Positions 3,129 to 49,372 of a stretch of 64,000 nucleotides of DNA are shown here, in pieces. Under the pieces are notes generated by a model. That model did no database searches and was not told the DNA's origin. It saw nothing but the letters and a program-made list of their open reading frames with translations. This stretch comes from Ulota crispa (Eukaryota; Streptophyta; Bryopsida; Orthotrichales; Orthotrichaceae). Position 1 is the first letter of the stretch, and the number at the start of each line of letters is the position of its first letter. The translations under genes were made by a program, and so were the position numbers. Location of the stretch: positions 12,744,539 to 12,808,538 of the forward strand of contig OY987248.1 in the NCBI GenBank assembly GCA_963920765.1, given 5' to 3'.

Positions 3129-3184
3129 ACGTGAACAATGTGAAAGCGTGAAGCCTCTCCCTCTCGCTTGTGTTCTTGTCTCCA

Positions 3185-24044: not shown

Positions 24045-24283
24045 GAAAAGAGTACATTCTGGGACTATCACTATTTCTGTCATTATGTGATATTCAGCAT
24101 ATTACAAAAGAAAAAAATATGGAATTTTTTATACAATATTGAAGTCTCAGTGATTGCCTACAAAAATTTCAAATAACTTTCAACTTTGAACTATAGCTAT
24201 GTCTACATTTATTGTATGTAATCTGATTAAGGTGAAATACAAAGTGGTACCTCTATTTTTCCTAATTTAACGAATATGGTGTT
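24024..24283. mobile_element. MITE, 4-bp TSD family
   Basis: A 260-bp element has ends AACACCATATTCATTAAATT and its inverse, flanked by TTAT on both sides (24020-24023 and 24284-24287). It is non-coding. Confidence 0.82.
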
Positions 24284-25685: not shown

Positions 25686-25872
25686 GCTCGTGATCACTAA
25701 TCAGGGCATGCTCTAAAAATCTGTTGGAATGCGATGCTCGTGATCACTAATCAGGGCATGCTCTAAAAATCTGTTGGAATGCGATGCTCGTGATCACTAA
25801 TCAGGTCATGCTCTAAAAATCTGTTGGAATGCGATGCTCGTGATCACTAATCAGGCCATGCTCTAAAAATCT
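25686..25872. repeat. 50-bp tandem repeat, about 3.7 copies
   Basis: The unit starts GCTCGTGATCACTAATCAGG and ends GTTGGAATGCGAT. The copies differ by single substitutions, mostly at one position (GGGCATG, GGTCATG, GGCCATG), so the expansion is recent. Confidence 0.95.
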
Positions 25873-27035: not shown

Positions 27036-27254
27036 ATGTTGATGGGAGCATACAACGAGTTGACCGACCTCGAATTCTGCGAGAACAACAGGCGATCCCG
27101 AAGCTCCGGAAGAATTTTGCAGTCACTCTTTTCGATACCGAATTGGATTGTGCTTGCAGGAGGCATGGCTATTGGGACGATGCTTGGTCAATCCTCTTCC
27201 TCAGCAAGTCCTGTTGAGGGAGTAAATAGTGACGTACCGGTAACCTCATCTTGA
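27036..27254 (+). CDS. Unrecognised small ORF or uORF (72 codons)
   Basis: The 72-residue frame has a basic Arg/Ser-rich stretch followed by one hydrophobic segment (about residues 36-52, IPNWIVLAGGMAIG) and a Ser-rich tail. This resembles short single-pass plant proteins but I cannot name a family. It lies between a candidate TATA box and the lectin start, so it may be an upstream ORF or the remains of a neighbouring gene. Confidence 0.2.
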   Translation: MLMGAYNELTDLEFCENNRRSRSSGRILQSLFSIPNWIVLAGGMAIGTMLGQSSSSASPVEGVNSDVPVTSS

Positions 27255-27496: not shown

Positions 27497-27715
27497 ATGA
27501 TGGAGAGCCACAGCACAAAAGAAATCGTCTCCTGTGGGCCGTGGGGAGGAGCAGGCGGAACCCCATTCTACGATGGGAGAGGCGACATTGTGGAGATCCT
27601 TGTCTCTCATAACGCAGAGCGTGTGCTGTGCATTGAGACCAGCTACAAGCAAGGAGACGTTTCTTTCAAAGCCGTGCCTCATGGAACCAGCAGCGCCGGA
27701 GCACAGTCCACTCAG
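27497..27715 (+). CDS. Lectin exon 1: start and N-half of domain 1
   Basis: It opens with a double ATG (27497 and 27500) and encodes 73 residues. GPWGG is followed by FYDGRGDIVEILV and a QGD turn, the first half of a jacalin domain. The exon ends CAG, donor GTAATA, phase 0. Confidence 0.75.
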
Positions 27716-30700: not shown

Positions 30701-33700
30701 CTTTTGTTGACTTTCCTTTACATTACCTCTCATTTCAATGGAAAACTCACATTTTACTGAATATGAGGTTTAATGTGATACCAAGGTGGATGCACAAAAC
30801 TTACAAATATTTTCATAGATAGTTTCCCATATACTAAAGTCCATAGACTAGTTGTGCACTTTAATAAGAATGTACTCATAAACATCACTTAGCTTTCCGT
30901 AATCAAAACACAAAATCAGAACCTAAGTTGAGTGAGAATGTTAATAAACAGCAGTTATGATAGAACCAGGCAGCCAGGCATGTACTAGTGCGTCATTAGT
31001 ACAAGAAACATAGGAATTATGGTCATATTCCTAGGTTAGAGCGTTATCAGCAGTGTGCTACTAGGATGGTACCAAAATGATTATTAGATCTTAATTGATA
31101 AATGCTGCATGTGTTGGTGCTCCAGGTTACACTGCAGTTCCCAGAGGAGTACGTCATGCAAGTGAAGGGAACAATCGACATGTGGAAAATCATGCAAGCC
31201 CATGTGGTGTCATCGTTGACGCTAGTCACCAACAAGAGGGTGTACGGGCCTTTTGGACGGGAAAGCGGGGTGCCGTTTGAGAGCTTGCCGGGTGGTCAAG
31301 TGGTGGGGTTTTTTGGTAGATCCGGCACTTTGTTGGATCAACTAGGAGTGTTAAGCCATCCCTCTAGTTCCTTTTTGACAACCTCGACGACCTCAACAAC
31401 CTCGACAACCTCAAAAACTTCAAAAACCTTGACAACCTCAATGACATCTTTTGATGATCAGGAGAATTGGGTCGCCGTGGATGGACCTTGGGGAGGCACT
31501 GACGGCTTGCTTTTCCACGACGGCCATGGTCGCATTTTGGAGATTGTCGTCACTTATCACGAGAACCAGGTTAATTCCTTGCAAGTCATTTATAAATACG
31601 GCACTGCTCAGTTTGCGGGCTCTGTTCACGGCGTTCCTGATGGGAAAGAAAGCAAGGTATCAACACTGATTCACCTTTGTGCTCAATGAAACATTCTCTT
31701 CTACAAAACTGAATTTGTTGATTGCCTTTCACTTTATTTGTTTCAATTTTTCATTTTCGAGAGTCTCTTTCTATAGCTATACTTGCACATTTGAACATGT
31801 TCCCATATTTGTTTTCATTTTCTCTTGAATGTTGATTCCTTGTTCATAGAGCATAGTGGCAAGGTCTCCCTTGTAGCAAGTGCTTGAGAGTTAGATTTTG
31901 CAAATCTTTGCAGTTTTAGATCTAGCACACTTAGGTTGTTAGCTAGGTCAAGCATTCAAATTCCAACATTTTTAACTTGAGTACGTAATTAAGTGGTTTG
32001 GTCAAGCTTGTCGGTGCACCACGATAACTTGGATTACAATATCATCACACTGGTACAAAGTAATTATCTTGATTTATTTCTATGATGAGTTATTTGTGTA
32101 GATGTTGAGAATTAGTATAAGTTTGTCAAGTAACTATGTGGTTGAAGCGGTTCATCAGGGGGGATTCATGATTTTTAGGGTTGTTTGAAACCTATCGTGC
32201 TCAACATTTTACTCATGTATTGGAGTGTGTACCTCAATGTAAATACAGATTTCGTTCCACCTTCCAGAGGAGTATTTGGTCAAAGTGAAGGGAACCATTG
32301 GGTGTATTTTAGGCCACAACACTGTCACGTCGCTATCATTCATCACCAACAAGTGCCAGTTTGGACCCTACGGCAGCCCCACGGGAGTAGCATTCAAGAG
32401 CTCCCCAGGTAGAGAGGTAACTGGATTTTTTGGCAGGTGTAACTCTCATCTTGGTCAAATTGGAGTCATCACTGGGACTCTGGGGCACTCAGACACCGCT
32501 GCAATCCAAGGCCCTTGGGGTGCTGAATATGGCTCTCAATTTTGCAGCGGAAGAGGGGAACTCACAGAAATCTACATCATGCTTACCAATGCTCATCTTG
32601 TGGGGCTGCAAACTACCTATAGTTTGGGTTTGGACATGGGCAACTTTAAAAGTGACTCTTGGGCTGGCAAGAGTCTCGCCCAAGTTGAGAAGGTAACAAT
32701 TTCTCTTGATATCACACCTGGTTTGCACATGAAAATTAGGTTATGCTTTCACTGGAACTCAATAAGAAAAATTATAGTAATCCTTGATTGAAATCAATGT
32801 GGTGGAATGTGGATTCTAACATGTAATGGATGCTTGCAACAGATTTCCTTGCATTCTCCTGAGGAGTATCTTATCCAGGTGAAGGGAACGATTAATGTTG
32901 TCAATGGCAAAGAGGCGGTGACATCGTTAACCTTCATCACAAATCAAAGAACTTATGGTCCTTATGGTTTGACCTCCGGAAAGAGCTTTGAGAGCACACC
33001 TGCTAAAATTGGGGGCTTCTTTGGACGCTGTGACTCTCACATTCACCAGCTTGGTGTCATCACTGAGCTCTCTTCCAACATCCAACTTCAAAGGACGTTT
33101 ACAAAGACAACCGTTGTCACCAGAAACGGCACCGACATAGGAGAACACCTATTAGATCAAGGTAAGCTCGTTCTAAATGGCGAGGAAAGCGACAACCACA
33201 TCAATACTGCACAGCAAATAGAGCATTCGAACAATGGGATTGCACATTATTTGAGAAGTGGTTCTAGCTACATAACCAAAGACCTCGTCAGCTCAGATGT
33301 TTTGGTGATTCAACAAGGTCCGTGGGGTGGTTCGAGTGGCCAAGAATTCTACGATGGAAGAGGTGATATTGTTGATCTGAACATCAGCTACAACAACAAT
33401 CTTATTACTTCAATTCAAGTTGGCTATGAGCAAGGAGGCACAAATTTTCAAGCACCACTACATGGCAGCAAAGGCACTCAACACGTGGAGGTGTGCAACT
33501 AATTCACCAAATTTATGTGTCTGTTTATCCATTCCCCAAATAGTACTCAAAGTTTTGGGTTAAAGGTGTTTGGGTTCAAGGATTTTGGGTTTAGGATTCA
33601 AGTTTAGGGTTGTTATGTAGGTTACTTCCATTAACTAGTGCATTGCTATTTAGAAGTTGAGGCACAAATGAAATTTCCAACAATTATAGTTACTACTGTG

Positions 33701-36700
33701 CTTGCAATTGATGAACTACAAACTCAAGAGATTCCTTGGCTATTTGCTGCAGAGCCTGCAGTATCCATGGAATGCTTATTAAAAATAATTAACATCTTTA
33801 TGGTTGGAAATAGTGAAGTCCTATAGTTCTTTATTGAGATATCAGTTGAACTCTCAATCTATAAATGTCTTCTTCTTGACCCTTAAGAATGTGACTTCTA
33901 TAGTTAGGCATGAGTACATATTAGTTATAAGGTATAGATGAAGCATAACTAGATGAAGAATGAATTTTGTGGATGTCAAAACCTAACATAGATTGTAGAG
34001 GACTAGAGATAGTGTTTCTCTTAGCAATTGAACAAGATTGCATAAGAATGTCCATCACTCTATTGACTTTTTTGTACTCACTTTTGCTAAAGTATCTAGA
34101 AATTTGAGTGCAATTATGCAGATTAATATGGATTCAAGTATTGAGCATGTGATTCAAGTAAAAGGGACAAGAGGATTAGTTGATGGTGCTCCAGCCATTA
34201 CGTCCCTCACAGTGGTCACTAACAAAGCCACATATGGGCCATATGGAAGCATGCAAGGCCAACGGTTTCAAAGTTCACAAGAGGGGATGGTGGTTGGAAT
34301 TTTTGGTCAAGCAAGTACAACTTTGCACCAGCTCGGAGTCATCACGTTGATAAACACAGCACCAAGAAATGGGCAATGCATACGTTGCTCAACGCACTAT
34401 ACGTACTGCAGCAAATGTAGCTTGCAAGATTTGCAAGTACCTAAATCCATCAAAAGTGAAAAGCAAACTATAGTGCATGAAACCAATATTTGTTTAACTA
34501 ACACACTTGGCTTGGAAAACCAACAAGATAACCTACACACAAGAAACCCTTGGACTCTAGAGCCAACGCCAAAGATGGCGCCAAAGCCGCCGCATGAACC
34601 GTTGCCGCCTCCAACGCAAGGCACAAGGGGGCCGAAGCCGCCGCAAGACCAGTTGCCGCCTTCGACACCAAGCACAAGCAGGCCGAAGCCACCTCACGAC
34701 CCATTGCTACCTTCGACACCAAGCACGGGGGGGCCGAAGCCGCCGCAGGACCCGTTGCCGCCTTTGAAGCCATGCACGGGGGGGCCAAAGCCGGCACACG
34801 ACCCGTTGCCTCCTTTGAAGCCATGCACAGGAGGGCCGAAGCCGCCGCAAGACCCGTTGCCGCCTTCAAAGCCATGCACAGGGGAGCCAAAGCCGCTGCA
34901 CGACCCGTTGCCTCCTTCGAAGCCATGCACAGGGGGGCCAAAGCCAGCACACGACCCGCTGCCTCCTTTGAAGCCATGCACGGGGGGGCCGAAGCTGCTG
35001 CAGGACCCGTTGCCACCATCAAAGCCATGCACGCGGGAGCCAAAGCCGCCGCACAACCCGTTGCCACCTTCAAAGCCATGCACGGGGGAGCCAAAGCCGG
35101 CACACGACCCGTTGCCTCCTTCGAAGCCATGCACGGGGGGGCCGAAGCCGCTGCAAGACCCGTTGCCGACTTCAAAGCCATGCTCGGGGGGGCCAAAGCC
35201 GCCGCAAGACCCGTTGATGCCTTTCACAGCAAGCACGGGGGGGCCAAAGCCGCCGCACGACCCGTTGCCGCCTTCGACACCAAGCACGGGGGGACTGAAG
35301 CCGCCGCAGGACCCGTTGCCACCTTCAAAGCCATGCACGGGGGAGCCAAAGCTGCCGCATGACCCGTTGCCGCCTTCGAAGCCATGCACGGGGGGGCCAA
35401 AGCTGGCACACGACCCGTTACCTCCTTCCAAGCCATGCACGGGGGGGCCAAAGCCGCCGCAAGACTTGTTGCCGCCTTCGACACCAAGCACGGGGAAGCC
35501 GAAGCCGCCGCAAGATTCGTTGCCACCTTCAAAGCCATGCACGAGGGAGCCAAAGCCGCCGCACGACCCGTTGCCGCCAACAAAGCCATGCATGGGGGGG
35601 CCAAAGCCGGCACACAACCCGTTGCCTCCTTTGAAGCCATGCACGGGGGGGCCAAAGCCGCCGCAAGACCCGTTGCCACCTTCGACACCAAGCACGGGGG
35701 GGCCAAAGCCGCCGCAGGACCTGTTGCCACCTTCAAAGCCATGCACGGGGGAGCCAAAGCTGCCGCATGACCCGTTGCCGCCTTCAATGCCATGCACGGG
35801 GGGGCCAAAGCCGGCACACGACCCGTTGCCTCCTTCGAAGCCATTCACGGGGGGGCCGAAGCCGTCGCACGACCCGTTGCCGCCTTTGACACCAAGCACG
35901 GGGGGGCCGAAGCCGCCGCAGGACCCGTTGCCACCTTCAAAGCCATGCACAGGGGAGCCAAAGCCGCCGCACGACCCGTTGCCGCCTTCAAAGCCATGCA
36001 TGGGGGGGCCAAAGCCAGCACACGACCCGTTGCCTCCTTTGAAGCCATGCACGAGGGGGCCGGAGCTGCCGCAAGACCCATTGCTGCCTTCGACACCAAG
36101 CATGGGGGGGTCGAAGCCGCCGCAGGACCCGTTGCCACCTTCAAAGCCATGCACAGGGGAGCCAAAGCCGTCGCATGACTCGTTGCCGCCTTTGCAGCCA
36201 TGCACGGGGGGGCCAAAGCCGCCGCAAGACCCGTTGCCGCCTTCGCAGCCATGCATAGGAGGGCCAAAGCCGCTACACGACCCGTTACCACCTTCGAAGC
36301 CATGCACGGGGGGGCCGAAGTCGGCACACGACCCGTTGCCTCCTTCAAAGCCATTCACGGAGGGGCCAAAGCCGTTGCAAGACCCGTTGCCGCCTTTGAC
36401 ACCAAGCACGATGGGGCCAAAGCCGCCGCAGGACCCGTTGCCACCTTCAAAGCCATGCACGGGGGAGCCAAAGCCGTCGCATGACCCGTTGCCGCCTTCG
36501 CAGCCATGCACGGGGAGGCCAAAGCCGGCACACGACCCGTTGCCTCCTTCCAAGCCATGCACGGGGGGGCCAAAGCCAGCACATGACCCGTTGCCTCCTT
36601 CAAAGCCATGCACAGGGGGGCCAGAGCTGCCGCAAGACCCGTTGCCACCTTCAACACCAAGCACGGGGGGGCCAAAGCCGCCGCATGACTCGTTGCCACC

Positions 36701-39700
36701 TTCAAAGCCATGCACGGGGGAGCCAAAGCCGCCTCAAGACCCATTGCCGCCTTCGCAGCCATGCATGGGGGGGCCAAAGCCAGCACACGACCCGTTGCCT
36801 CCTTCGAAGCCATTCACGGGGGAACCAAAGCCGCCGCAAGACCCGTTGCCGCCTTTGACACCAAGCACGGGGGGGCCGGAGCCGCCGCAGGACTCGTTGC
36901 CACCTTCAAAGCCATGCACGGGGGGGCCAAAGCCAGCACACGACCCGTTGCCTCCTTTGAAGCCATTCACGGGGGGGCCAAAGCCGCCACAAGACCCGTT
37001 GCCGCCTTCGACACCAAGCACGGGGGGGCCGAAGCCGCCGCAAGACCCGTTGCCACCTTCAAAGCCATGCACGGGGGAGCCAAAGCTAGCACACGACCCG
37101 TTGCCTCCTTCGAAGCCATGCACGGGGGGGCTGGAGCTGCCGCAAGACCCATTGCCGCCTTCGACACCAAGCACAGGGGGGCCGAAGCCGCCACAGGACC
37201 CGTTGCCACCTTCAAAGCCATGCACGGGGGGGCCGAAGCCGCCGCATGACCCGTTGCCGCCTTTGCAGCCATGCACGAGGGGGCCAAAGCCGGCACACGA
37301 CCCATTGCCTCCTTCAAAGCCATGCACGGGGGGGCCGAAGCCGCCGCAAGACCCGTTGCCGCCTTCGACACCAAGCACGGGGGGGCCAAAGCCGCCGCAC
37401 GACCCGTTGCCACCTTCAAAGCCATGCACGGGGGGGCCAAAGCTAGCACACAATCCGTTGCCTCCTTCGAAGCCATGCACGGGGAGGCCGGAGCTGCCGC
37501 AAGACCCATTGCCGCCTTCGACACCAAGCACAGGGGGGCCGAAGCCGCCACAGGACCCGTTGCCACCTTCAAAGCCATGCACGGGGGAGCCAAAGCCGCC
37601 TCAAGACCCATTGCCGCCTTCGCAACCATGCACGGGGGGGCCAAAGCCAGCACACGACCCGTTGCCTCCTTCGAAGCCATTCACGGGGGAACCAAAGCCG
37701 CCGCAAGACTCGTTGCCGCCTTTGACACCAAGCACGGGGGGGCCGGAGCCGCCGCAGGACTCGTTGCCACCTTCAAAGCCATGCACGGGGGGGCCAAAGC
37801 CAGCACACGACCCGTTGCCTCCTTTGAAGCCATTCACGGGGGGGCCGAAGCCGCCGCAAGACCCGTTGCCGCCTTCGACACCAAGCACGGGGGGGCCGAA
37901 GCCGCCCCAGGACCCGTTGCCACCTTCAAAGCCATGCACGGGGGAGCCAAAGCTGCCGCACGACCCATTGCTGCCTTCAAAGCCATGCTCGAGGGGACCA
38001 AAGCCAGCACACGACCCGTTGCCTCCTTCAAAGCCATGCACGGGGGGGCCGGAGCCGTCGCAAGACCCGTTGCCGCCTTCGACACCAAGCATAGGGGGGC
38101 CAAAGCCGCCGCAGGACCCGTTGCCACCTTCAAAGCCATGCACAGGGGGGCCGAAGCCGCCGCATGACCCGTTGCCGCCTTCGCAGCCATGCACGGGGGG
38201 GCCAAAGCCGGCACACGACCCGTTGCCTCCTTCAAAGCCATGCACGGGGGAGCCGGAGCTGCCGCAAGACCCATTGCCGCCTTTGAAACCAAGCACAGGG
38301 GGGCCGAAGCAGCCGCATGATCCGTTGCCACCTTCAAAGCCATGCACGGGGGAGCCAAAGCCGGCACACGACCCGTTGCCTCCTTCGAAGCCATGCACGA
38401 GGGGGCCAAAGCCGCCGCAAGACCCGTTGCCGCCTTCAACACCAAGCACGGGGGGGCCGAAGCCGCCGCAAGACCTGTTGCCGCCTTCGACACCAAGCAC
38501 GGGGGGGCCAAAATCGCCGCAGGACCCGTTGCCACCTTCAAAGCCATGCACAGGGGAGCCAAAGCCGTCGCACGACCCGTTGCCGCCTTTGAAGCCATGC
38601 ACGGGGGGGCCAAAGCCGGCACACGACCCGTTGCTTCCTTTCAAGCCATGCACGGGGGGGCCAAAGTTGTCGCAAGACCCGTTGCCGCCTTTGACACCAA
38701 GCACGGGGGGGCCGAAGCTGCCGCAAGACCCGTTGCCACCTTCAAAGCCATGCACAGGGGAGCCAAAGCCGTCGCACGACCCGTTGCCGCCTTCGAAGCC
38801 ATGCCCGGAGGGGCCAAAGTCGGCACACGACCCGTTGCCTCCTTCGAAGCCATGCACGGGGGGTCCGAAGCTGTCGCAAGACCTGTTGCCGCCTTTGACA
38901 CCAAGCACGGGGGGGCCGAAGCCGCCGCAGGACCCGTTGCTGCCTTTGACACCAAGCACGGGGAGGCCAAAGCAGCCGCAGGACCCGTTGCCGCCTTTGA
39001 AGCCATGCACGGGGGAGCCAAAGTTGCCACAGGACCCATTGCCGGAGCTACAATATGAGGTAGTACTTGTCGTCCTTCTTGGGTTTAATTGTGTTGGGTT
39101 AGATTGAGCTATATGAGCTCTGGTTTATTATCGTGCGAGTGTCAATTTAGTCAATTTTGTAATGAGGACCCTTTGATGCATGTACGTAGTGTGACTAGTG
39201 CCTTTTCTTGGTTGCCATTGATCAGGAGCGTGCGCTTGCTTGTATTGGTGGACGCTCCTTGTTTTGCAAGGGCATTTTGTTTCTTGTTTATGGCTTCCAT
39301 CATTGAGATTATGTTTGAGGTTTTTTGTACTTTTTAGTTTGGTGAGCAACATACAAGACGCATTCTCATCCAGAAGTGCCCGCTTAATTCAGGAATGTCA
39401 CCCAATTTGACTGGGTTTCATCCTTGAATTTGAGCTTCTTGTTTAGTGTGGACAATGCTTTGGTCTCTTCAGCTGTCCGGGAGTTTTTATCTGACCTATC
39501 AAAGCTTGCAGAGAATGTAGTCAGCAGTAAAGTGTCACTAATTGAGTTCAGCTCCATGAAAACTGGTTGCTTTTGGCTCAACTAGAATACTGATGGTATA
39601 TACGTCATGTTGCAATAGGATATACTAATCTATTTGTTTTTACAATATAATTGCTAGAAAACTAGTTGAAAACAACTTCAGAACTAAATTCTTGAAATTG

Positions 39701-42700
39701 GGTGACTACTAACTAGACTAAATAAACAAACAAAGTCTAGTTTCAAACTAGGGCATCAAATTAATTTCCTAATAGTGTTGTTTTTGTGTCTCAAATGCTT
39801 ATGTCATTGAGGAGGTGCCCTTTCAAGGCTGAAATCACAACATCCGAGACATAAAGTTGAGGCAAATGGCTCTAAAGGTGCAAGTCAAACGGTTTGGGAT
39901 GTTGGGCTGATGTAGCTTTGCCTTGTTTGGGTGTCTTTGGTAGGGCACAATGGAGCAATGGTGGTTTGATTGGATTCGAGGAATCCACGTTGACAAGGTT
40001 TTCAAGGTTCGAGGACCGTGGGGACGGAAGGGAGAGCCCAACTTTTATGACGGAAATGGCAACATTAGTGAAATAGAGGTTGCGTACTCCAAGGAGTTCA
40101 TCTTGCGTATTCAAACAACTTATGTTTTGAATGGGATGAGCTTCAAGCAATCTCCACAAGGTGGCCCAGGTGGTGATGTGGCCAAGGTGAGTGGCTTGTT
40201 GAAAATGCTTTCCTTGTGGTCTGAGGAGTGGTTGTATGGTCAATGCAGTGGTAGGTTTTATTAAGAAACATATTGCTGATGTGATGCTTAAGCAATGATG
40301 TGCGTCCTTTCATTGAATGTCAATCAGACAAGCATTCTTTGCAGTGGCAAGTTGAGTGCCGTCATTTGTGGGTTCATTTCTAAAACTTTCGAAGGTTGTT
40401 GCCTAGGTGCAATTGAGCTAAAAAGACAAATTGCTTGGTGGAGTTTTGAGTATTATACTGTTGCACTGTGCAGGTGACGCTGCAATATCCAGATGAGTAT
40501 TTGGTCCAAGTGAGGGGAACCACTTGTGAGGTCTCTTCAGTGGGTGTTGCAGTGACGTCTCTCACTTTCGTCACCAACAAGCGGACCTTTGGACCCTATG
40601 GGTCTACAACGGGAGGCTCTAGGTTCAAGACTCAGCATGGACGGGTGATGGGCTTCTATGGAATAGCAATGTTGTGCTTGCATAGCATTGGAGTCTTGAC
40701 GGCCAAAGTGAAAGACCCATGGTACACGGAAACTATGGTCATGCAAGAGGCTTGGGGTGGTCAAGGTGGAGTGTCGTTCTACGAATGTGGTGGCGAGGTG
40801 ATCGAGCTACTAGTCTCCTACAGCGACCAACAAGTTGTTTCTTTGCAAACAATGTATAGACGTGGAGGAAAAAGCTTTAGAAGCAACCAGCACGGTGGAC
40901 AGAATGGCGCCGCTGCTAAACAAGTCAAGGTGCGTGAGATTAGGACTAAGAACTTTGATGTGTGGTGCTCCATGGCCACTTGCATGTGCAACAAATCGGC
41001 ATGGCAAGTGTGCTCAAACGACAAACCGCTTTTGTAACGCATTTGGGATGTTTTTTGAAACCTCAAAGGCTTGGCATGAATCAAAAAGCCTAGCTTGCTT
41101 ACGAAGACTGACGATGGAGCAATGTGATTAGCAGATCACTCTGGAGTCTCCGGAGGAGTACCTAGTGCAAGTGAAGGGCAGCAGCTACCATGTCAATGGG
41201 TTGCTTGTCATCGAGAGCTTGGAGTTTGTGACAAACAAGCAACGCTACGGGCCTTATGGTGCATCAAATCCGCAAGGGCAGTTGAGATCTACTCAAAAGG
41301 GCGGCAAAGTGGTTGGTTTCTTTGGGAAGGCGGGAAATTTCCTGGATCAACTAGGCATGATTGTCAGCCTCCCATTGCAAAGGCATGATTTGGTGACGTG
41401 CCAAGGGTCTTGGGGAGTTCCGGGAGGGAGTCCATTCAATGACGGGAGGGGCGAGATTGTTGAGCTCTTGATGAAGTACAACAAAAAGCAAGTTGTGTCC
41501 TTGCAGGTGACATATGAGCAAGGGGGGTCTCGATACAAGTCGCAATTGCGCGGTGGAGTTGGCAATGGCCAGAGCATACAGGTTGGACCTTCAACTCGTA
41601 GGCTTCCATGTCGATGCACTATGGCAAAGATGCAAGAGGGCTGTAGCGGGACATGGGGGTGGTGTGCGGATCCATTTGCCAAGTAGGTGATTCCATGGAG
41701 CTTACACGTTGATACTATTGGAAATGCTTGTGCAGGTTTCTTTTAAGCCTGGAGAGTACCTAGAGCAAGTGAAGGGAACAACAGGAGGCATACTCTCGGG
41801 CGGAACGATGGTGACGTCTCTAACCTTCATCACCAACATGCAGACGCATGGGCCATTCGGCTCAATGATGGGCAGTGCATTCGAGACAAAGGCATTTGGA
41901 AAGGTGGTGGGCGTATTTGGAAGTTCGGGGAGCTTCTTAAACTCCATTGGCTTCATCACAGAGCTGCGACCGGGGAAGGCGCTACCCCCAACAATGAAGC
42001 TAGGCCCGTGGGGAGGTCAAGGAGGGCGTGAGTTTTGTTGTGGGCAGGGAGACATTGTGAAGGTGGTGGTGTACCACAACCGCACTCAGATCAACGGGAT
42101 CCAGGTCACATACGAGCAGGGCGGAGTGAGTTTTGAGCCGGTAACCTACGGAGGTACTAGCGGCACAGCGTCAGAGGTACTATTTGTACTGGATTCTTGG
42201 CTAATGAGATGAGGCTGATTGTGAAATGCATAAATTTCTGTGGGTGGAAGGTTTGGAAGTAGGGGTTTGTTATGTTCCAAGTATGTAAACAGATGCGTGC
42301 AACCATGCACTTGCAATGGTAGTGCATTGTCATAGCCCCGTCTTTGGTTCTTTGAAAGCTTTGTTGCAGCCATGACAAGTGGCCATGGAAGTGTACATTG
42401 AACTAAGACGGACATAATGGTTGTGGATGCAGATATCTGTGGACTTTCCGAATGAATACTTGACTCAAGTGCAGGGAACCACGGGAAAGGTGGGGATCTT
42501 GGGCTCGTACGGCCAGGTGATCACGTCCTTGACGTTCATCACCAACAAGCACAAGTATGGTTCTTATGGCTCGCTGAAGGAGCCCGTGAAGAAGTCAGAG
42601 TTTGAAAGTCCTCCAAGCCGTTTGGTGACGGGATTCTACGGTAGGGCTAGTGATAGCTTGGACCAGCTTGGAGTGTTCACCACCGTGGACTCAGAGACGT

Positions 42701-45700
42701 CAATTGCATACTTGCAAATATATCACGTGGATTGTACTACCACCCCACATATCTGGTATGAGCCTGGCACTTCAATGACTACAAGTTCACCCATTTCTTC
42801 CAAGCCAGATAGTTCATCCGAGTCTGAAAACTCATCAAGGCCCTCTTTGCCAGGGACAGGCAAAATACTAGTGGAACTGGAACCTGGATTACCTGACATT
42901 CCCGTTTTTGGAAATTTCCCTGAGTTGTATTCAATTACTGGATCCACAAAAGTTGAAGGGCCGTGGGGTGGTGATGGTGGTGATGTGTTCTATGATGGAA
43001 CTGGGGATCTACATGAAATTCGAGTTGCTTACTCAAAGAAGCATGTAACGTCTTTGCAATTTGTATACATTTCTGATGGCATAGTCATAGAGGGGACAAA
43101 AATTGGTGGAAGCCTTAGAGATGAATGCATCAAAGTAAGTTCCTTGCCTCTTACTTTGGTTTTACAGTTTCAATGTGCTTAATGTTGTCTATTGTTCTTC
43201 ATCTATGATCTTTAGAGGAATAGTTGTAAGCCAACTGTCATTCCTTTCAGTGAATTGTTGATGGAATATCTGTGTTTTGGTTACCTCTTACAGGTGGTTC
43301 TAAAGTCTCCAGAGGAGTACATCATTTGCATCAAAGGAACTATTGGTGTTGTTTCTAGTCACAAAATCATCACGTCACTTACATTTGTTTCCAACCAAGC
43401 TGTCTACGGTCCTTACGGTAAGACTGAAGGGCAACAATTCACTAGCTCTGGATTTGGAAAGGTGGTGGGCATCTTTGGCAGCGCAAGGTCATATATTGAT
43501 CGGCTGGGAGTGTTTTCCACATCGACGATTGTAACTGCTTCTTCGAGTATCGAAGGTTCATGGGGTGGAGATGGGGGCTACGCATTTTCTGATGGAAGAG
43601 GCGATATTGTAGAAATCACGGTCACCTACAACCGTGACCAAATTGTCTCTTTCCAAGCAATCTACAATCAAAATGGAACTCGCTTCCCAAGTCGTTTGCA
43701 TGGTGGTTATGGTGGAAAGAGCCAAAGCAAAACGGTACAATTTATCTCAACTTCTCAAATTTCACAATTGATTTGGTTGTATTGCATTTGCTCAATTGAA
43801 ATCCAAGTACTAAATATAAAAATTCACTTATTTATGTTATATGTGCAGATTGTGCTAAATTTTTCCAACGAATATCTTATACAAGTCCAAGGTACTTATG
43901 GAAGAGTCCGTGCACTTTCAAATGTGATTACTTCTTTAAGCTTCATCACTAGCAAGAAGACTTATGGCCCATTTGGTGCCATTGGTGAAGAAGATTTCAA
44001 GACCAGTGAAGGAACACAAGTTGTGGGATTTCATGGTCGCTCTTCTGATTTCCTTGACCGCTTCGGAGTCTTTACAACTACAAAAGTACTTGCCCAAAGG
44101 CCATGGGGCGGTGTAGGAGGGTCAGCTTTTTATGATGGGAGAGGTGACATTGTTGAGATTTTGATTGAATATACGGAGGACTGCATTGTTTCTTTACAAG
44201 CAACATACGAGCAAGGCGGTGGTGTTTTTAAGACCACTGCTCGATTTGGTCCTGGAGGAGAGACAGCCAAGGTAATGTGTAGTATTGCTTTGCAATGTAA
44301 GCCATTGTAGTTAATAACAACAATTGCCATGTGTCACATTCTTCTCATGGCTAGCAATAGAACTTTCGATTTTAATGCTTGAAGCTTCTTCTTTATTTGA
44401 AGGTTTTACATGTGACAAGAGCTGAATAGTTTTGTAACCGTCTAGAGTTTTAATTTTATATTGCCACGTGTAGATCAAATTTGATCAAGAGCAAGAGCAG
44501 CTTCTTCAAATCCAAGGTTCCATAGGAGACACATTTGACACAGACATGATTACATCATTGACCTTCATCACCACCAAGAAAACCTATGGACCTTATGGAA
44601 CTGTCACTGACAAAAAGTTTGAGAGTAAGAAGCACGGAAAGGTTGTTGGGTTCTTTGGAAGGAGTGAAATTTTTTTGGACCAAATAGGTGTTGTAACTGA
44701 ATATTCACCAAAGGACCATGATGTCATCCTCTCTCAGGGCCCTTGGGGAGGGAATAACGGAAACGTTTTCTATGATGGAAAAGGTTCTGTGGTTGGAATC
44801 ATTGTGACCTACAACCAAAAGCAAGTCATCTCTTTTCAGGCTATTTATAGTCAAGGCACTGCCATTTTCAAGGCAGATTTTCATGGAGGACCTGGCGGAA
44901 ACATTGCCAAGGTATGCATCATTTACCACAACTCTTTTTGTATACAATTTCTTTGGCTATGCTAATTAAAGCAAAATCAAGTATATCAAAATAACGATTT
45001 GTAACAATTTTTGTTCATGGAAACAGATATTTTTCAATTCTCAAAGCGAAGAACTTTTGCAAGTAAAGGGAACAATAGGCGAGGTTGGTGGAAACCTTGT
45101 GGTCACGTCACTCACATTTTACAGTAATAAGAGAGTTTTTGGCCCTTTTGGAAGTGTGAGGGACACCAAGTTCGAGAGTTCTCCAAGTGGCAAAGTGAAG
45201 GGATTCTATGGAAAAGCTGGAATATGCCTTGATCAGATTGGGTTTATCACCCAGTTTTCTCCCAAGAAATTGGGTGATGAGGTTGTTGTGCAAGGACCTT
45301 GGGGTGGGCCTAATGGCAACAATTTCTATGGTGGTAGAGGAGAAATTCTTGATATCGTGGTTTGTTATAGCAAGACTCAGATCTTGTCATTGCAAATGAC
45401 GTATGAGTACAACGGAGCATCTTATAAAGGAGAGAAGCAAGGAGCAGATGGTGGAGATTTGAGAAAGGTGCAAATATTTTCCTATTGCATTCTTCTTTGC
45501 TTTGCTTGCTTTATGATAACTAAATATAATATTGGGTTAGCCAACTTCAAGCTTTATGGACTAACCTCATAAAACAAACTTCATATTGCACAGATCTCAT
45601 TCAAAGAGACCAATTCATACTTGGTACAAATCAAGGGAACCTTTGGAAAGGTGGCTAATACAATTTGCATAACTTCCTTGACATTCGTCACAAGCAAGCA

Positions 45701-48700
45701 CTCTTACGGTCCTTTCGGATCTGCCCGTGGAACACAATTCCAATCCTACAAAAGTGGAAAAATTGTTGGACTGTTTGGAAAAGCTTCCACGTCAATTGAC
45801 CAGCTTGGAGTGATTACACAAATTTGTGCTGAAAGCCAAGTTTCCAAAGTTCAAATGAAAAACATGGGACCTTGGGGTGGACAAGGAGGTGTAGAGTTTC
45901 ACGACGGCCACGGTCATATCCGTGACTTAGATGTTCAATACACTGACCATCAAGTTGTTGCATTCCAAGCTATCTACGAACAAGGTGGCATTGTGCTTCA
46001 CGGTACAAACCATGGTGGAACATCAAAAGAAAGCCGTCACGTTCATCATGCTAAGGCAAGCTCTCTTGGATATTTGCTTGAAATGCTTCATGTGATAACA
46101 TAAAACAAGCCCTCTTCTTTGTACAGCTATTTTTCAAATAAGGAAACTTTGAAATGCATAGCTTATCTGTTCTAATATACTGGCTTGTGCTTTCACCAGA
46201 TATCATTTCACGGCCTAGATGAGTACTTGATACAAATCACCGGTACATATGGTCTCATCTCCGGTGGAGAGATGATAACGTCATTGACCTTTATCACCAA
46301 CAAGCAAAAGTATGGTCCATTTGGTCATGAAGATGGAGAATCTTTTGGCACTCCAAGCGGACAAAAGATAATGGGGTTCTTTGGAAGAGCTGCAGCATAT
46401 CTTGATCAGATTGGCGTTGTGGTGTCTGAAGAACCTCTACACCAGCCTCTGGCAATCAGCCCAATGTCACCCAAGCTCGATGAAATTGAAGAGAGGGTCC
46501 ATATCGAAGGACCATGGGGTGTGGACCAGGAGACCAATTTCTATGGTGGAAGAGGCAACATTGTTGAAATAGAAGTGGCCTACAACAAAGATACCATCTT
46601 GCGCATTCAGACAACTTTTCAAGAAAATGGAACTAACTTCAAACAAGAAGCATTAGGTGGTCCTGGTGGTGAAGTAGCCAAGGTAAGAGACGTAGATTAC
46701 TTTTTCTTAGCATGTCTTGGATTTTTTTTCTTATTTTTGACCTGAGGATACATGAAAAAAAGTAATAGACATGATTCTAAAAACCCCAAATTGCAATGAA
46801 ACTTTTGCAATGATTGACATGAGATGTTTACTCACATTTTTGGTAATTGCTATTTGGTGTAGATTATGCTCCAATATCCGGATGAGTATCTGGTCCAAGT
46901 GAAGGGAACCACCCGAGAGGTTTCTTTGGTGGGTGTTGCAGTGACGACCTTCACATTCATCACCAACAAGCGGTCATACGGACCGTATGGATCCGTGAAG
47001 GGAGGTACAAGTTTTGAAACAACTCAACATGGAAGAGTGATGGGCTTCTACGGCAGAGCAACATCTTGCCTGCAAAGCATTGGAGTCCTTGCTGAAGTCG
47101 AGGATCTTCCGAACATGGAAACTGTCATTGTCCAAAACACTTGGGGTGGTCGAGGTGGAGAGCCTTTCTTTGATGGTAGAGGCAATGTAACAGAAGTACT
47201 TGTAACCTACAATGATCTTCATGTCGTTTCTTTGCAAATAACCTACAGACAAGGAGGGAAGATTTTCAAAGCCAAGCAACATGGAGGGCAGAAGGATGCC
47301 GGAGCCAACCAAGCCAAGGTGAGAGAGATGCATTGTTATTTCATTGAGAGTTGCGGATGTGGTCCAACCATATGTTGCATCTGCACTGGATTGAGGACTT
47401 TTCTCCAAATTTTGGTAGCTAGGTAGGACAGAGGAAGCTCAGTAACTAATCTTGGGGCACTATGTTTGTCAGATCACTTTGAACTATCCTGATGAGTACT
47501 TGATGCAAGTGAGGGGTAGCAGCCATAACATTGACGGTTTACTCATCATAGAGAGCCTGCATTTCATTACAAACAAACAAAGCTATGGGCCTTACGGTGC
47601 ATTGAAGCCACAAGGACAGTTGCAAACTACCCCAAAGAACGGCAAAATAGTTGGTTTCTTCGGAAGGGCAGGGTATTTCCTAGATCAACTAGGCATGATC
47701 GTCACCTTTCCGTCGCAGAGGGATGATTTGCTAATATGCCAGGGATCTTGGGGAGGTCCGGGAGGGCACTCGTTTTGTGACGGTAGGGGCGAGATTGTGG
47801 AACTCCACTTGAAGTACAACCAAAAACAAATCATCTCGCTCCAGGTGACGTATGAGCAAGGAGGCGCTCAGTACAAGTCCCAGCTGCACGGTGGAGGTGA
47901 CGGTGGCAAAAGCAAACAGGTCCCACCTTTGAACTCGTAGACTTTGATGTTGTTGCCGTGTTCTAAGCTTGCAAGCAAGCTTCTATGCATTAAGGAGATT
48001 GGCAATTGTCTGCGGATTCTGTTGCCAAGTAGCACTATAAGGAATTGTGTCCTAATTGACATGTCCAAATTGACTAAATGTGTTCAAAATGACAAAAAAA
48101 GCTGTCAATCTGTAGGGTTGGCCATGTTGATTTGGACAAATGTTTGTCATTTTGGACAGCTTTCCTTGTAGTGTAGGTGAATCCATGGCGGAGTGGAGCT
48201 TACATGTCAAGCTTGCTGGACACATATGTGCAGATTTCTTTTGAGCCTGGAGAGTACCTAGTGCAGGTGAAGGGAACCACAGGCATCATAGTTCCGGGTG
48301 GAATTATGGTGACATCTCTCACCATCATCACAAACAAGCAGTCACATGGACCATTCGGGGCGGTTGCTGGCTATGCATTCGAGACAAAGGCATCTGGAAA
48401 GGTGGTAGGTGTGTTTGGAAGATCGGCGAGGTTCTTGGATTCCATCGGTTTCATCACAGAGCTGCATCCGGGGAAGGCGCTACCCGCAACGGTGAAGTTG
48501 GGCCCGTGGGGTGGCCAGGGAGGACGTGAATTCTACGCTGGGCAGGGTGATATTGTGAAGGTGGTGGTGTACCACAATGAAGATCACATCAACGGAATTC
48601 AAACCACATATGAGCAAGGCGGAGTTAGTTTCAAACCTGTGACTTTTGGAAACACCAACGGCCTTGCATCCGAGGTATGAATCCCTTGCAACTCCTTGTT

Positions 48701-49372
48701 GATCAATTGTGGTTACACCAAATGAGCACAATATGCAAACTTCCATCTCTTTTTCCACAAAATGGAGTGTTTGTAAGTACTTACATGTCAATCTTAGAAT
48801 GATAACTTGGAGTAGAAACTTTGGATCATGTTGTGCATAATCACAAAGAAACAATTACAAGAAGTGCAGACCCATGAATCCATCTCAAAAACATCTTGAC
48901 TTGGTGCTGATCTTTGGTCCAGATATCTCTTGACTTTCCAAATGAATACTTGGCGCAAGTCAAAGGAACCACGGCCGAGGTGGACTCGCACCAGGTAATC
49001 ACGTCATTGGCGTTCATCACCAATATGCAGAAATACGGTCCTTACGGACACAAAAAGGGATCATACTTCAAAAGTCCCTCAGAGCGGTTGGTGACGGGAT
49101 TCTTTGGACATGCTGGAGATGCTCTTGACCAGTTTGGAATTTTTGCCACTGTTAGCTCAAGAGCCACAGAGAGATACTTGCGTGTTCACCTCGACGATTG
49201 GAAGAATTTGCAGGGAGCATCTATCAAAAAAGAGGTCTCTTCTACGGAGAAGTTTTTTGTGGAGGAGTTTGGGAGACTGCCTTCCATTGGCCCTAGCCAC
49301 AACCAAATGGGAGAGTTTTGCAGCAAGACGAGGGAGTTTGGCAAGCCTATATTCACGGCGTCCCTTCTTTAG
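27497..49372 (+). CDS. Giant multi-jacalin lectin with proline-rich repeat region
   Basis: The model has 20 exons and 19 introns, and the total coding length is 13,551 bp (about 4,516 residues). It contains 18 jacalin-type lectin domains (known family role: mannose or glucose binding; beta-prism fold). Each domain is encoded as an N-half (GPWGG...FYDGRGDIVEI...Y-x-QGG) at the end of one exon and a C-half (PEEYL-x-Q-V-KGT...SLTFITNK...YGPYG...VGFFGR-x-G-x-x-LDQLG) at the start of the next. All introns are phase 0. Between domains 4 and 5 lies a proline-rich region of 87 x 17 residues (about residues 772-2251). The start MMESH has no signal peptide, as in cytosolic mannose-type jacalins. The weakest joint is exon 5 to exon 6. 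Two adjacent genes, or a short isoform ending at 39107, are the main alternatives. Splice sites are by eye and not confirmed by transcripts. Confidence 0.7.
29681..29775. repeat. 28-bp tandem repeat, ~3.3 copies
   Basis: The unit CATGTGTAAGTTCCTTAAGG plus ATTCCTAG is repeated inside lectin intron 1. The last copy has lost one base. Confidence 0.9.
30493..30770. mobile_element. MITE, 4-bp TSD family (copy in lectin intron 1)
   Basis: It is 278 bp, the same length as the copy at 6041-6318 and in inverted orientation relative to it. The ends are AATCTCATATTC and its inverse, flanked by TAAT on both sides (30489-30492 and 30771-30774). Confidence 0.82.
31126..31656 (+). CDS. Lectin exon 2: C-half of domain 1, Thr/Ser linker, N-half of domain 2
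   Basis: 177 codons, phase 0 at both ends. The C-half has FPEEY, TNKRVYGPFG and G-T-L-L-D, a complete GXXXD sugar-loop motif. A linker of TTS repeats (about 31375-31445, 9-bp DNA period) separates it from DGPWGG of the next domain. Confidence 0.8.
32249..32692 (+). CDS. Lectin exon 3: C-half of domain 2, N-half of domain 3
   Basis: 148 codons. LPEEYLVKVKGT opens the exon. The sugar-loop Asp is replaced by Gly (SHLGQIG), so this site may not bind mannose. GPWGA is the start of domain 3, which is less conserved than the others. Confidence 0.75.
32843..33490 (+). CDS. Lectin exon 4: C-half of domain 3, long linker, N-half of domain 4
   Basis: 216 codons. The sugar-loop Asp is replaced by His (SHIHQLG). 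A linker of about 80 polar residues precedes GPWGGSSGQEFYDGRGDI. The intron before it is short (150 bp). Confidence 0.8.
34122..39059 (+). CDS. Lectin exon 5: C-half of domain 4 plus 87-unit proline-rich region
   Basis: 1,646 codons in one exon. It opens with a jacalin C-half (VIQVKGT, TNKATYGPYG) whose sugar-loop Asp is His (TTLHQLG). Next comes a Cys motif CIRCSTHYTYCSKC (34377-34418), a polar stretch, then the repeat. The exon ends TATGAG, donor GTAGTA, phase 0. Without splicing, the frame runs on to a stop at 39105-39107. Confidence 0.75.
34593..39032 (+). repeat. 51-bp minisatellite encoding 87 Pro-rich 17-mers
   Basis: The consensus unit is PLPPSKPCTGGPKPPQD. The distance from the first HEPLP codon (34593) to the last QDPLP codon (39030) is 4,437 bp, exactly 87 x 51, so register is kept throughout. 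Units fall into four types that usually recur in the order PST-type (no Cys), E-type (CTGEP...H), A-type (PKPAH) and Q-type (PPQ), a 204-bp higher-order repeat. By my count about 56 units contain Cys. The DNA is GC-rich and nearly stop-free in all frames. Confidence 0.92.
39060..39943 (+). other. Lectin intron 5 (884 bp)
   Basis: The donor GAG|GTAGTA and a T-rich acceptor tract ending TTTGGTAG (39943) are plausible. It contains an alternative stop at 39107 and no recognisable feature. Its existence decides whether the locus is one gene or two. Confidence 0.5.
39944..40186 (+). CDS. Lectin exon 6: N-half of domain 5
   Basis: 81 codons. VRGPWGRKGEPNFYDGNGNISEIEVAY...GGPGGDVAK closely matches the N-half in exon 16. 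The acceptor at 39943 keeps phase 0; others at 39997 or 40006 would also fit. An ATG at 39950 could instead start a second gene. Confidence 0.65.
40474..40929 (+). CDS. Lectin exon 7: C-half of domain 5, N-half of domain 6
   Basis: 152 codons, YPDEYLVQVRGT start. The sugar-loop Asp is His (LHSIG). The N-half of domain 6 reads AWGGQGG, with Glu-Cys in place of the usual Asp-Gly. Its paralogue is exon 17. Confidence 0.82.
41135..41581 (+). CDS. Lectin exon 8: C-half of domain 6, N-half of domain 7
   Basis: 149 codons. Complete GXXXD motif (GNFLD). The domain 7 start is SWGVPGG. The donor CAG|GTTGGA is weak but matches the equivalent site of its paralogue, exon 18. Confidence 0.8.
41736..42176 (+). 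CDS. Lectin exon 9: C-half of domain 7, N-half of domain 8
   Basis: 147 codons. The sugar-loop Asp is Asn (GSFLNSIG). GPWGGQGGREFCCGQGDI starts domain 8. Its paralogue is exon 19. Confidence 0.82.
42433..43134 (+). CDS. Lectin exon 10: C-half of domain 8, ~90-residue linker, N-half of domain 9
   Basis: 234 codons. FPNEYLTQVQGT start, sugar loop S-D-S-L-D (Gly replaced by Ser). A Ser/Pro/Glu-rich linker precedes GPWGGDGGDVFYDGTGDL. The donor AAA|GTAAGT is strong. Exon 20 is a truncated paralogue. Confidence 0.82.
43294..43734 (+). CDS. Lectin exon 11: C-half of domain 9, N-half of domain 10
   Basis: 147 codons. SPEEYIICIKGT start, sugar loop R-S-Y-I-D keeps the Asp. SWGGDGGYAFSDGRGDIVEI starts domain 10. 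Confidence 0.85.
43849..44271 (+). CDS. Lectin exon 12: C-half of domain 10, N-half of domain 11
   Basis: 141 codons. FSNEYLIQVQGT start, sugar loop S-D-F-L-D. RPWGGVGGSAFYDGRGDIVEI starts domain 11. The preceding intron is only 114 bp. Confidence 0.85.
44474..44911 (+). CDS. Lectin exon 13: C-half of domain 11, N-half of domain 12
   Basis: 146 codons. The usual PEEY start is replaced by a Gln/Glu-rich DQEQEQLLQIQG. The sugar loop E-I-F-L-D keeps the Asp. GPWGGNNGNVFYDGKGSVVGI starts domain 12. Confidence 0.83.
45027..45467 (+). CDS. Lectin exon 14: C-half of domain 12, N-half of domain 13
   Basis: 147 codons. SQSEELLQVKGT start, complete GXXXD (GICLD). GPWGGPNGNNFYGGRGEILDI starts domain 13. 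Exons 13 and 14 share the non-canonical start and look like a local duplicate pair. Confidence 0.83.
45594..46055 (+). CDS. Lectin exon 15: C-half of domain 13, N-half of domain 14; GC donor
   Basis: 154 codons. Sugar loop S-T-S-I-D. GPWGGQGGVEFHDGHGHI starts domain 14 and the exon ends in a His-rich HVHHAK. The donor is AAG|GCAAGC, a GC-AG intron. No in-phase GT lies at the homologous site. Confidence 0.78.
46200..46682 (+). CDS. Lectin exon 16: C-half of domain 14, linker, N-half of domain 15
   Basis: 161 codons. Sugar loop A-A-Y-L-D. The ~35-residue linker contains a short Pro/Ser run. The end of the exon matches exon 6, so exons 5 and 6 together correspond to this exon with an expanded linker. 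Confidence 0.84.
46863..47318 (+). CDS. Lectin exon 17: C-half of domain 15, N-half of domain 16
   Basis: 152 codons. The sugar-loop Asp is Gln (SCLQSIG). TWGGRGGEPFFDGRGNVTEV starts domain 16. Same length as its paralogue, exon 7. Confidence 0.84.
47473..47919 (+). CDS. Lectin exon 18: C-half of domain 16, N-half of domain 17
   Basis: 149 codons, the same length as its paralogue exon 8. Complete GXXXD (GYFLD). SWGGPGGHSFCDGRGEIVEL starts domain 17. Donor CAG|GTCCCA. Confidence 0.82.
48033..48173. mobile_element. CACTA-type MITE in lectin intron 18
   Basis: A 141-bp element starts CACTATAAGGAATTG and ends TTTCCTTGTAGTG, with a TAG target duplication (48030-48032 and 48174-48176). It is closely related to 15027-15177. 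Confidence 0.87.
48234..48674 (+). CDS. Lectin exon 19: C-half of domain 17, N-half of domain 18
   Basis: 147 codons. Sugar loop A-R-F-L-D. GPWGGQGGREFYAGQGDI starts domain 18. Paralogue of exon 9. Confidence 0.84.
48923..49372 (+). CDS. Lectin exon 20: C-half of domain 18 and C-terminal tail
   Basis: 149 codons plus TAG (49370-49372). Complete GXXXD (GDALD). The last ~70 residues match the linker of exon 10 (Y-L-x-V/I-H and FG-x-x-P blocks) but stop before any further jacalin half, so the gene ends where the duplicated block was cut. Confidence 0.82.
   Translation: MSLDFPNEYLAQVKGTTAEVDSHQVITSLAFITNMQKYGPYGHKKGSYFKSPSERLVTGFFGHAGDALDQFGIFATVSSRATERYLRVHLDDWKNLQGASIKKEVSSTEKFFVEEFGRLPSIGPSHNQMGEFCSKTREFGKPIFTASLL

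Follow-up and report, generated by a model that had tools for sequence, protein, structure and literature searches.

A candidate gene for a giant jacalin-type lectin with a long proline-rich rod in the moss Ulota crispa

The 64,000-nucleotide stretch of Ulota crispa DNA analysed here (the window) contains what is, on balance, probably a functional gene for a giant nucleocytoplasmic jacalin-type lectin (JRL), most likely one gene but possibly two adjacent ones. The product would consist of two lectin heads on an extended spacer, largely disordered or in polyproline-II form, and would bridge or cross-link glycans of the mannose/glucose type. Judged from the family to which it belongs, its likeliest role would be that of an intracellular agglutinin released on damage, serving in defence or stress. 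This reading is drawn from the sequence of the locus, referred to here as A, and of two paralogues, B and C.

Structure of the gene

At 27497-49372 on the + strand, 20 exons splice into a single frame of 4,516 residues (~480 kDa). Twenty exons, all in phase 0, had been proposed in an earlier note, and the splice sites and the 13,551-nt coding sequence agree with this: every exon length is divisible by 3, and the sole stop is terminal. The introns are GT-AG in 18 of 19 cases; the one after exon 15 (46055) is GC-AG.

Exon 1 (27497-27715) provides the start codon and the N-terminal half of the first domain, d1. Exon 2 (31126-31656) joins the C-terminal half of d1, with its GTLLD motif, to the N-terminal half of d2. 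In exons 3 (32249-32692) and 4 (32843-33490), the C-terminal halves of d2 (reading NSHLG) and d3 have lost the motif and are followed by the N-terminal halves of d3 and d4. Exon 5 (34122-39059), which is open over 1,646 codons, completes d4 and includes the proline-rich rod (34580-39044), with a four-cysteine motif, CxxC-x6-CxxC (34377-34418), between the two. The next stretch, 39060-39943, is intron 5 if there is one gene, or a 3' end and intergenic DNA if there are two.

Exon 6 (39944-40186) holds the N-terminal half of d5 alone. Each later exon up to exon 19 combines the C-terminal half of one domain with the N-terminal half of the next: d5 (motif lost) and d6 in exon 7 (40474-40929), d6 (GNFLD) and d7 in exon 8 (41135-41581), d7 (GSFLN in A, GSFLD in B) and d8 in exon 9 (41736-42176), and d8 and d9, with a Ser-rich linker between them, in exon 10 (42433-43134). 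The series continues with d9 and d10 in exon 11 (43294-43734), d10 and d11 in exon 12 (43849-44271), d11 and d12 in exon 13 (44474-44911), d12 (GICLD) and d13 in exon 14 (45027-45467), and d13 and d14 in exon 15 (45594-46055), where the GC donor is also found in B. It runs on through d14 and d15 in exon 16 (46200-46682), d15 (motif lost) and d16 in exon 17 (46863-47318), d16 (GYFLD) and d17 in exon 18 (47473-47919), and d17 and d18 in exon 19 (48234-48674). Exon 20 (48923-49372) ends the protein with the C-terminal half of d18 (GDALD), a tail and the stop.

An upstream ORF of 70 codons (27042-27254) was considered as a first exon with a membrane segment and was rejected on splice scores, its best donor reaching 4.1 bits and the exon-1 acceptor -1.35, each below all 36 reference sites. 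The ORF is conserved and was found solely upstream of the three lectin loci.

Lectin domains and sugar binding

A Pfam search of the translated exons assigns four jacalin (PF01419) stretches to exons 1-5 and a further 14 to exons 6-20, as the claim of 4 + 14 complete domains had it. They score 371 and 1,287 bits, against a curated cut-off of 22. For domain 12, the closest solved structures by sequence are 1zgr (E 1e-32), 4mq0 (3.7e-30) and 1c3k (1.3e-16), and these matches suggest that the domains adopt the beta-prism I fold.

The letters GxxxD in the C-terminal loop, which we take to be the JRL carbohydrate-binding motif, are also present in the sequences of 1zgr and 1c3k. The motif is complete in 5 of the 18 domains of A, and its Asp is kept in 12; the corresponding counts in B are 7 and 13 of 18, with B d9 read by eye. 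In neither A nor B is the Asp present in d2-d5 or d15. Polyvalency in the sense of an 18-valent sugar binder was thus overstated. Going by the motif, the number of domains predicted to bind sugar lies between about 5, those with the full GxxxD, and 12, those retaining the Asp; d1, d6, d12, d16 and d18 are predicted binders and d2-d5 predicted non-binders. The remainder, including those adjacent to the rod, may act as structural beads.

With exon 1 as the start, the highest 19-residue Kyte-Doolittle mean among windows in the first 70 aa is 0.74. There is no hydrophobic N-terminal stretch, which agrees with the claim that a signal peptide is absent. Prolyl hydroxylases sit in the ER/Golgi; with no secretion signal, the prolines of the rod are not expected to be hydroxylated.

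Paralogues and selection

Paralogue B lies on another contig; it retains the full set of 20 exons and an open frame of 4,301 codons. Between A and B, dN/dS is 0.257 over 2,957 aligned codons (exon 5 being represented by its first 150 codons alone) and is less than 1 in 20 of 20 exons. When the same substitutions were placed randomly, a mean of 32 internal stops arose (minimum 22, 300 trials), versus none observed. As read from these codon comparisons, the lectin exons are under purifying selection.

Copy C, 65 kb downstream, is decayed. It was rejected as a third working gene: stops interrupt the frame of exons 2, 5 and 8, exons 3 and 7 have frame-breaking changes in length, and the exon-6 acceptor is lost. 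Exons 9 and 10 have no acceptable match in C, and no further jacalin matches were found downstream, in a search where single-exon queries went up to exon 10.

The proline-rich rod

In rod A, TRF reports a 51-bp unit in 87.5 copies with 0% indels, and the coding frame has no stop, in agreement with the 87-unit proline-rich segment described earlier. The 87 tandem units of 17 aa have the consensus GPKPPHDPLPPSKPCTG; an example unit peptide is GPKPPQDPLPPSKPCTG. All three copies of the gene have a rod that is in frame and inserted at the same point. Rods A, B and C are 1,501, 1,268 and 1,149 aa long with 36, 31 and 42% proline, and their repeat units differ, being 17 aa in A, 12 aa in B and an irregular 13/17 aa in C. 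The description as a Pro/Cys region is apt for proline in every rod, but for cysteine in rod A only: the Cys counts are 56, 0 and 0, and cysteines as functional cross-links were rejected as a general feature of the rods.

Compared by blastn at E 1e-3 with matches of any length, the three rods show no match to one another, and a two-unit query from rod A finds A as its sole match in the genome. Right beside the rod, DNA from the different copies aligns at 75-87% (plus-strand matches of at least 150 nt). By eye, the A and C rods share a register of 13 + 4 residues and differ in sequence, while B is wholly different. The CxxC-x6-CxxC motif before the rod recurs in B, C and two of three database relatives of exon 5. 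At the rod's place these three relatives have short, non-repetitive tails (88-177 residues, 5-15% proline). Since the relatives have a short tail where A, B and C use different repeats, the rod, by this comparison of sequences, arose by lineage-specific expansion: its place and make-up have lasted, but its sequence has kept changing.

The coding frame of the rod contains no stop in A, B or C (about 1,488, 1,253 and 1,104 codons). Among the other 15 rod frames, 11 have 10-132 stops and four have 0-8. The open frame alone was rejected as proof of coding because the +2 frame of B is also fully open, and frames -1 and -2 of A and -0 of C have just 3, 8 and 1 stops. Changes in rod A fall on third codon positions ~2.5 times as often as on the others (279 versus 109 at first and 118 at second positions, of 1,479 each); in rod B, first positions vary as much as third (230 versus 234). 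Distinct synonymous variant types number 22 in rod A versus 19.7 expected, indicating little constraint, and 15 in rod B versus 15.1 expected, indicating none.

These variant counts fit a tolerated coding minisatellite, in which the in-frame expansion is neutral and the units differ through mutation alone. This explanation, compatible with either gene model, is a contender that we would place a little short of even. The shared register without shared sequence in A and C, and the entirely different B, also favour it, as do the short-tailed relatives of exon 5, which imply that the gene can do without a rod. However, neutral arrays would be expected to contract as well, whereas two intact copies and one decayed copy all keep long proline-rich rods with a stop-free coding frame; the third-position bias of rod A likewise argues against it.

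If instead the rod is the spacer of a giant lectin, it would be preserved for length and stiffness and not for sequence, which would leave unequal crossing-over and conversion free to replace the unit. Its reach had been put at ~0.45 micrometre; by our estimate the spacer of ~1,500 residues could span up to ~0.47 micrometre if stretched out completely, with 0.31 nm for each residue. We tentatively suggest that a spacer of ~0.4-0.5 micrometre has been selected for physical length and extension alone, each copy having built its rod anew out of a repeat of its own. The protein would then be a giant two-headed cross-linker with conserved heads and a linker that evolves like a satellite, joined after d4 and the four-cysteine motif. 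The paralogous rods offer a natural experiment on the evolution of low-complexity protein, in which place is the same, composition similar and sequence different, and comparing them makes selection on spacer physics instead of residues testable.

One gene or two

The single polypeptide envisaged at first has one open spliced frame in its favour; its weak point is the splice between exons 5 and 6, which is good in A but has a weak acceptor in B and none in C. The intron-5 donor of A scores 6.62 bits, which 2.8% of 1,358 background GTs reach, and the acceptor 9.58 bits, reached by 0.28% of 1,437 background AGs. Neither falls outside the scores seen at the other 36 sites, though the donor is near the bottom. 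The acceptor of B, at 1.03 bits, scores worse than all 36 reference acceptors, of which the poorest reaches 2.0.

Because of the weak acceptor in B, a reading as two adjacent genes deserves consideration, and we regard it as plausible but doubtful. A four-domain lectin with a rod tail (exons 1-5) would end at a stop at 39105-39107 on the + strand, to which exon 5 reads on, and a 14-domain lectin (exons 6-20) would start at ATG 39950. That ATG has the context cacaATGGag, which we take to be a good plant start context, and is matched by ATGs at the same place in B; in C it reads ATA, although C is decayed. Exon 6 encodes an N-terminal half only, as do exon 1 and the first exon of a two-exon, single-domain jacalin gene on C6. 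The last 226 aligned nucleotides before exon 6 are 85% identical, versus 77% in the first 633 of intron 5; yet the identity of intron 5 as a whole between A and B is 79%, inside the 77-95% of the other introns. Other evidence against two genes includes the well-scoring splice sites of A, the GT donor at an identical codon at the rod end in A, B and C, and the read-through tail past that donor, which varies between copies and has no stop in C.

An array that is decayed or untranscribed, with a frame produced by chance in GC-rich repeats, is very improbable as an account of the locus: rod frames are open or nearly open on both strands and the neighbouring copy has decayed, but the low dN/dS, the intact frame of B and the conserved splice sites speak against it.

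Relatives and comparison with known systems

The candidate giant lectin is most readily compared with the Parkia lectin (1zgr/4mq0), which shares PF01419 and several domains in one chain and has the closest solved structures. Tandem mannose-specific JRLs such as this one are of the cytosolic type without a signal peptide. Unlike the 18-domain, 4,516-aa product of locus A, the Parkia lectin has three domains in ~450 aa and no proline-rich rod.

The Solanaceae chitin-binding lectins of the potato type also combine lectin modules with a proline-rich segment. They have the hevein fold and are secreted and hydroxylated/glycosylated. Locus A differs in having no signal peptide and a single SP dipeptide in rod A, and no hevein domain was found in the translated exons, where PF01419 is the only Pfam family. 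SPPP of the extensin type is absent from rods A and B and occurs eight times in decayed copy C. Extensins and hydroxyproline-rich glycoproteins are marked by a signal peptide and SPPP-type repeats, whereas locus A has no hydrophobic N-terminus and no SPPP in its rod, and the likeness to hydroxyproline-rich chimeras proposed in the earlier note is a loose one, extending to the lectin and proline segment but not to secretion.

The same architecture was not found in protein collections of 161-513 aa and 1,538-4,895 aa (7,986 and 7,984 candidates scored), and the 7,986-candidate search of long proteins, which used words from the first 500 residues, returned no match. A search for long jacalin proteins (7,984 candidates) gave two matches, of which only P0046 (4,292 aa) exceeds 4,000 aa. 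It is 28% identical over 14% of the query and has three C-terminal jacalin stretches, no other Pfam match and, unlike locus A, no proline-rich rod in its sequence.

Nor did such an architecture appear in the accessible text of the literature searched, including PMC5485960, PMC5536079, PMC11707655, PMC8197871 and PMC6362431; within these collections and texts, the earlier claim of a new architecture is supported. Fusion partners of JRLs include dirigent, kelch, kinase and F-box domains (PMC5536079). The JRLs of Arabidopsis and grasses are multi-domain like locus A, with far fewer domains (tandem arrays of up to five in Arabidopsis and up to three in grasses; PMC11707655), and the accessible parts of both papers (PMC5536079, PMC11707655) mention no proline-rich rod. 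Eighteen jacalin domains in one frame compare with up to five per protein in that source (PMC11707655), and the whole is the largest plant lectin architecture in the collections and accessible literature searched, its rod alone ~3 times the length of an entire three-domain lectin.

The genome gives 56 matches to chlorophyll a/b-binding proteins and 5 to radial spoke protein, which mark a green plant that forms flagellated cells. In the 161-513 aa search, the best-scoring named proteins are angiosperm lectins (32-36% identity), and a conifer (Araucaria) lectin matches at 39% identity over 46% of the query. Database proteins that best match one particular exon were found for exons 2-5, 7 and 11-15, which marks the array as old.

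Gene model and domain architecture

The lectin locus (copy A; 27497–49372, plus strand) lies on contig C7 in a genome of 275 Mb in 157 contigs. Chlorophyll a/b-binding proteins and a radial spoke protein encoded in this genome mark a green plant that forms flagellated cells. Its 20 exons, each of a length divisible by three, splice into a 13,551-nt coding sequence with a single, terminal stop. The 19 introns are all GT–AG except intron 15, a GC–AG intron common to copy A and its paralogue on contig C1 (copy B). In most exons, the C-half of a jacalin domain is followed by the N-half of the next; exons 1 and 6 hold an N-half only, exon 5 a C-half and a proline-rich repeat segment (the rod), and exon 20 a C-half and a tail. 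Pfam, run on the translated exons, finds four jacalin stretches in exons 1–5 and 14 in exons 6–20, which bears out the 4 + 14 division of 18 complete domains proposed in an earlier note. The predicted product of all 20 joined exons has a mass of 480 kDa and a pI of 8.2, and a hydrophobic N terminus, looked for in this protein, is absent.

By domain content, the copy A protein belongs to the jacalin family. A search for long jacalin proteins returned two matches: an Oryza punctata protein (1,678 aa) that combines NB-ARC with jacalin domains, and a protein of 4,292 aa whose C terminus carries three jacalin domains. No protein of 1,538–4,895 aa among the candidates scored had a comparable architecture. 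Up to five jacalin domains per protein are reported in PMC11707655.

One gene or two

On balance we favor, by a modest degree, reading copy A as one gene, which would encode a single polypeptide. The GT donor past the rod occupies an identical codon position in A, B, and the downstream copy on the same contig (copy C). Compared with the scores of 36 reference donors and acceptors, a set that excludes intron 5 (39060–39943) itself, the copy A donor (6.6, with 4 of 36 references lower) and acceptor (9.6) of this intron fall within the reference range. Copy B has a good donor (7.9) and a poor acceptor (1.0 versus a lowest reference of 2.0), and the copy C acceptor is lost. A somewhat less probable arrangement is two genes, the second starting at exon 6 (39944), which resembles a first exon in carrying only an N-half and has an ATG in A and B. 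The first exon of a single-domain jacalin gene on contig C6 is likewise of the N-half type, and reading through exon 5 reaches a stop 15 codons beyond the donor.

Paralogues and constraint on the lectin exons

At least 63 jacalin exon matches are listed genome-wide, a lower bound; as tallied from match rows, 61 fall in the three lectin loci and 2 elsewhere (C6 and C4). Outside the rod, the three copies are colinear at 75–98% identity, introns included. In copy B (minus strand), all 20 exons of A align with conserved splice sites, and the frame runs for 4,301 codons with one stop.

Constraint acts on the lectin exons. Over 2,957 aligned codons, taking in just the first 150 of exon 5, A and B differ with a dN of 0.071 and a dS of 0.276 (ratio 0.257), and the ratio is below 1 in all 20 exons (maximum 0.64). 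When the 933 A/B differences were randomly placed on A, a mean of 32 stops arose (minimum 22 in 300 trials), against 0 observed. Exon lengths differ in 7 of the 18 exons compared (all but 5 and 20), always by multiples of three, a result that is partly by construction given boundaries set by alignment and splice consensus.

Copy C, ~65 kb downstream of A, is decayed, as seen from stops in exons 2, 5, and 8, broken frames in exons 3 and 7, and the lack of an acceptable match for exons 9 and 10. Downstream of these, the genome search lists no more jacalin matches. Exon 1 of A (27497–27715) is identical to that of C (C7:12837316–12837534; dS 0). Since five other exons compared between them have a dS of 0.28–0.42, this suggests recent conversion of the 5' end.

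Turnover of the rod

The rod sequence has turned over between copies. Rod A consists of 87 units of 51 bp, rod B of 12-aa units (PPTQPPVVTKPT), and rod C of mixed repeats with dominant 39- and 51-bp periods plus 12-bp elements. In the order A, B, C, the rods have 1,501, 1,268, and 1,149 residues, 36, 31, and 42% proline, and 56, 0, and 0 cysteines. Blastn between them gave no matches even at E 1e-3; at the protein level, A and C share by eye a PPxDPLPP core.

The coding frame has no stops in any of the three rods. Eleven of the 15 noncoding frames have 10–132 stops, but openness alone is modest evidence for coding because the other four are also open or nearly so (B +2, 0; C −0, 1; A −1, 3; A −2, 8). 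Third codon positions in rod A are ~2.5 times more variable than first or second positions, and rod B has no such excess (234 versus 230 and 140). When each distinct variant is counted once, synonymous changes only just exceed expectation in A (22 versus 19.7) and match it in B (15 versus 15.1). Our own reading is that constraint would be weaker on residues than on frame and composition, and selection may act on rod length; a neutral account of the rod is also plausible.

Relatives and age of the array

Among 44 proteins found in a database search, translations (sources jgi, lgn, and ena) best match exons 2, 3, 4, 5, 7, 11, 12, 13, 14, and 15. Some lie on contigs of equal length, perhaps the same contig within each pair, and these pair as exons 12 + 14 (twice), 2 + 4, and 14 + 15, as would be expected if exon order were conserved. 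Because of these exon-specific matches and pairs, the array likely predates the A/B split.

Three relatives (P0030, P0032, and P0034) match exon 5 at 59–69% over 75–102 residues and continue beyond the half-domain for 88–177 residues with 5–15% proline, although the translations may end at a splice site, stop, or contig end. No jacalin N-half occurs in these tails. A CxxC-x6-CxxC motif stands ahead of the rod in A, B, and C and in two of the three relatives. Given these short, low-proline tails and the shared motif, the joint after domain 4 (d4) and the Cys4 motif are old, and the giant rod is most simply explained as a later expansion of a short tail.

The C6 gene (4.235 Mb; positions 3159–4000, minus strand, of stretch L027) has one domain in two exons, split at the corresponding point, and may represent the family's plain form here.

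In the domain tree, d5, d6, d7, and d8 pair with d15, d16, d17, and d18, and each A domain adjoins its B partner, which points to a four-domain block duplication older than the A/B split. Exons 6–10 (39944–43134) and 16–20 (46200–49372) resemble an internal block duplication.

Predicted sugar sites and proposed function

The jacalin sugar-binding site carries the GxxxD motif, whose letters are visible in aligned 1zgr and 1c3k. The full motif occurs in d1, d6, d12, d16, and d18 of copy A, with Asp kept in 12 of 18 domains; copy B has 7 full motifs and 13 Asp among 18 (one domain by eye). Asp is missing from d2–d5 and d15 in both copies, so the rod-flanking d4 and d5 are probably nonbinding and the N-terminal head likely holds a single binder.

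The evidence best fits a multivalent cross-linking lectin, in which two lectin heads would be joined by a long proline-rich spacer. It would reside in the cytosol, unless it uses an unrecognized export route, and may bind mannose/glucose-type glycans. It would act after damage or under stress, in line with the role proposed for cytosolic members of the family (PMC5536079, PMC5485960).

Neighboring features

An open frame of 70 codons with a hydrophobic stretch (27042–27254), 93–97% identical between copies, occurs three times in the genome, once per lectin locus and always ~240 nt ahead of exon 1; its use as a spliced exon is not supported. A 522-codon open frame (54180–55748, minus strand) matches the Pfam Type II intron maturase family, with a reverse transcriptase match below cut-off, and DNA overlapping it adjoins copy B at ~95% identity, a closer match than most lectin exons show. 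By eye, translations show a PPR protein with a terminal DYW-type motif (58235–60794, plus strand) and 2-oxoglutarate oxygenase-like exons (61808–63777, minus strand). Further tandem repeats have units of 21 bp (8404–8515), 82 bp (23881–24045), and 50 bp (25686–25873).
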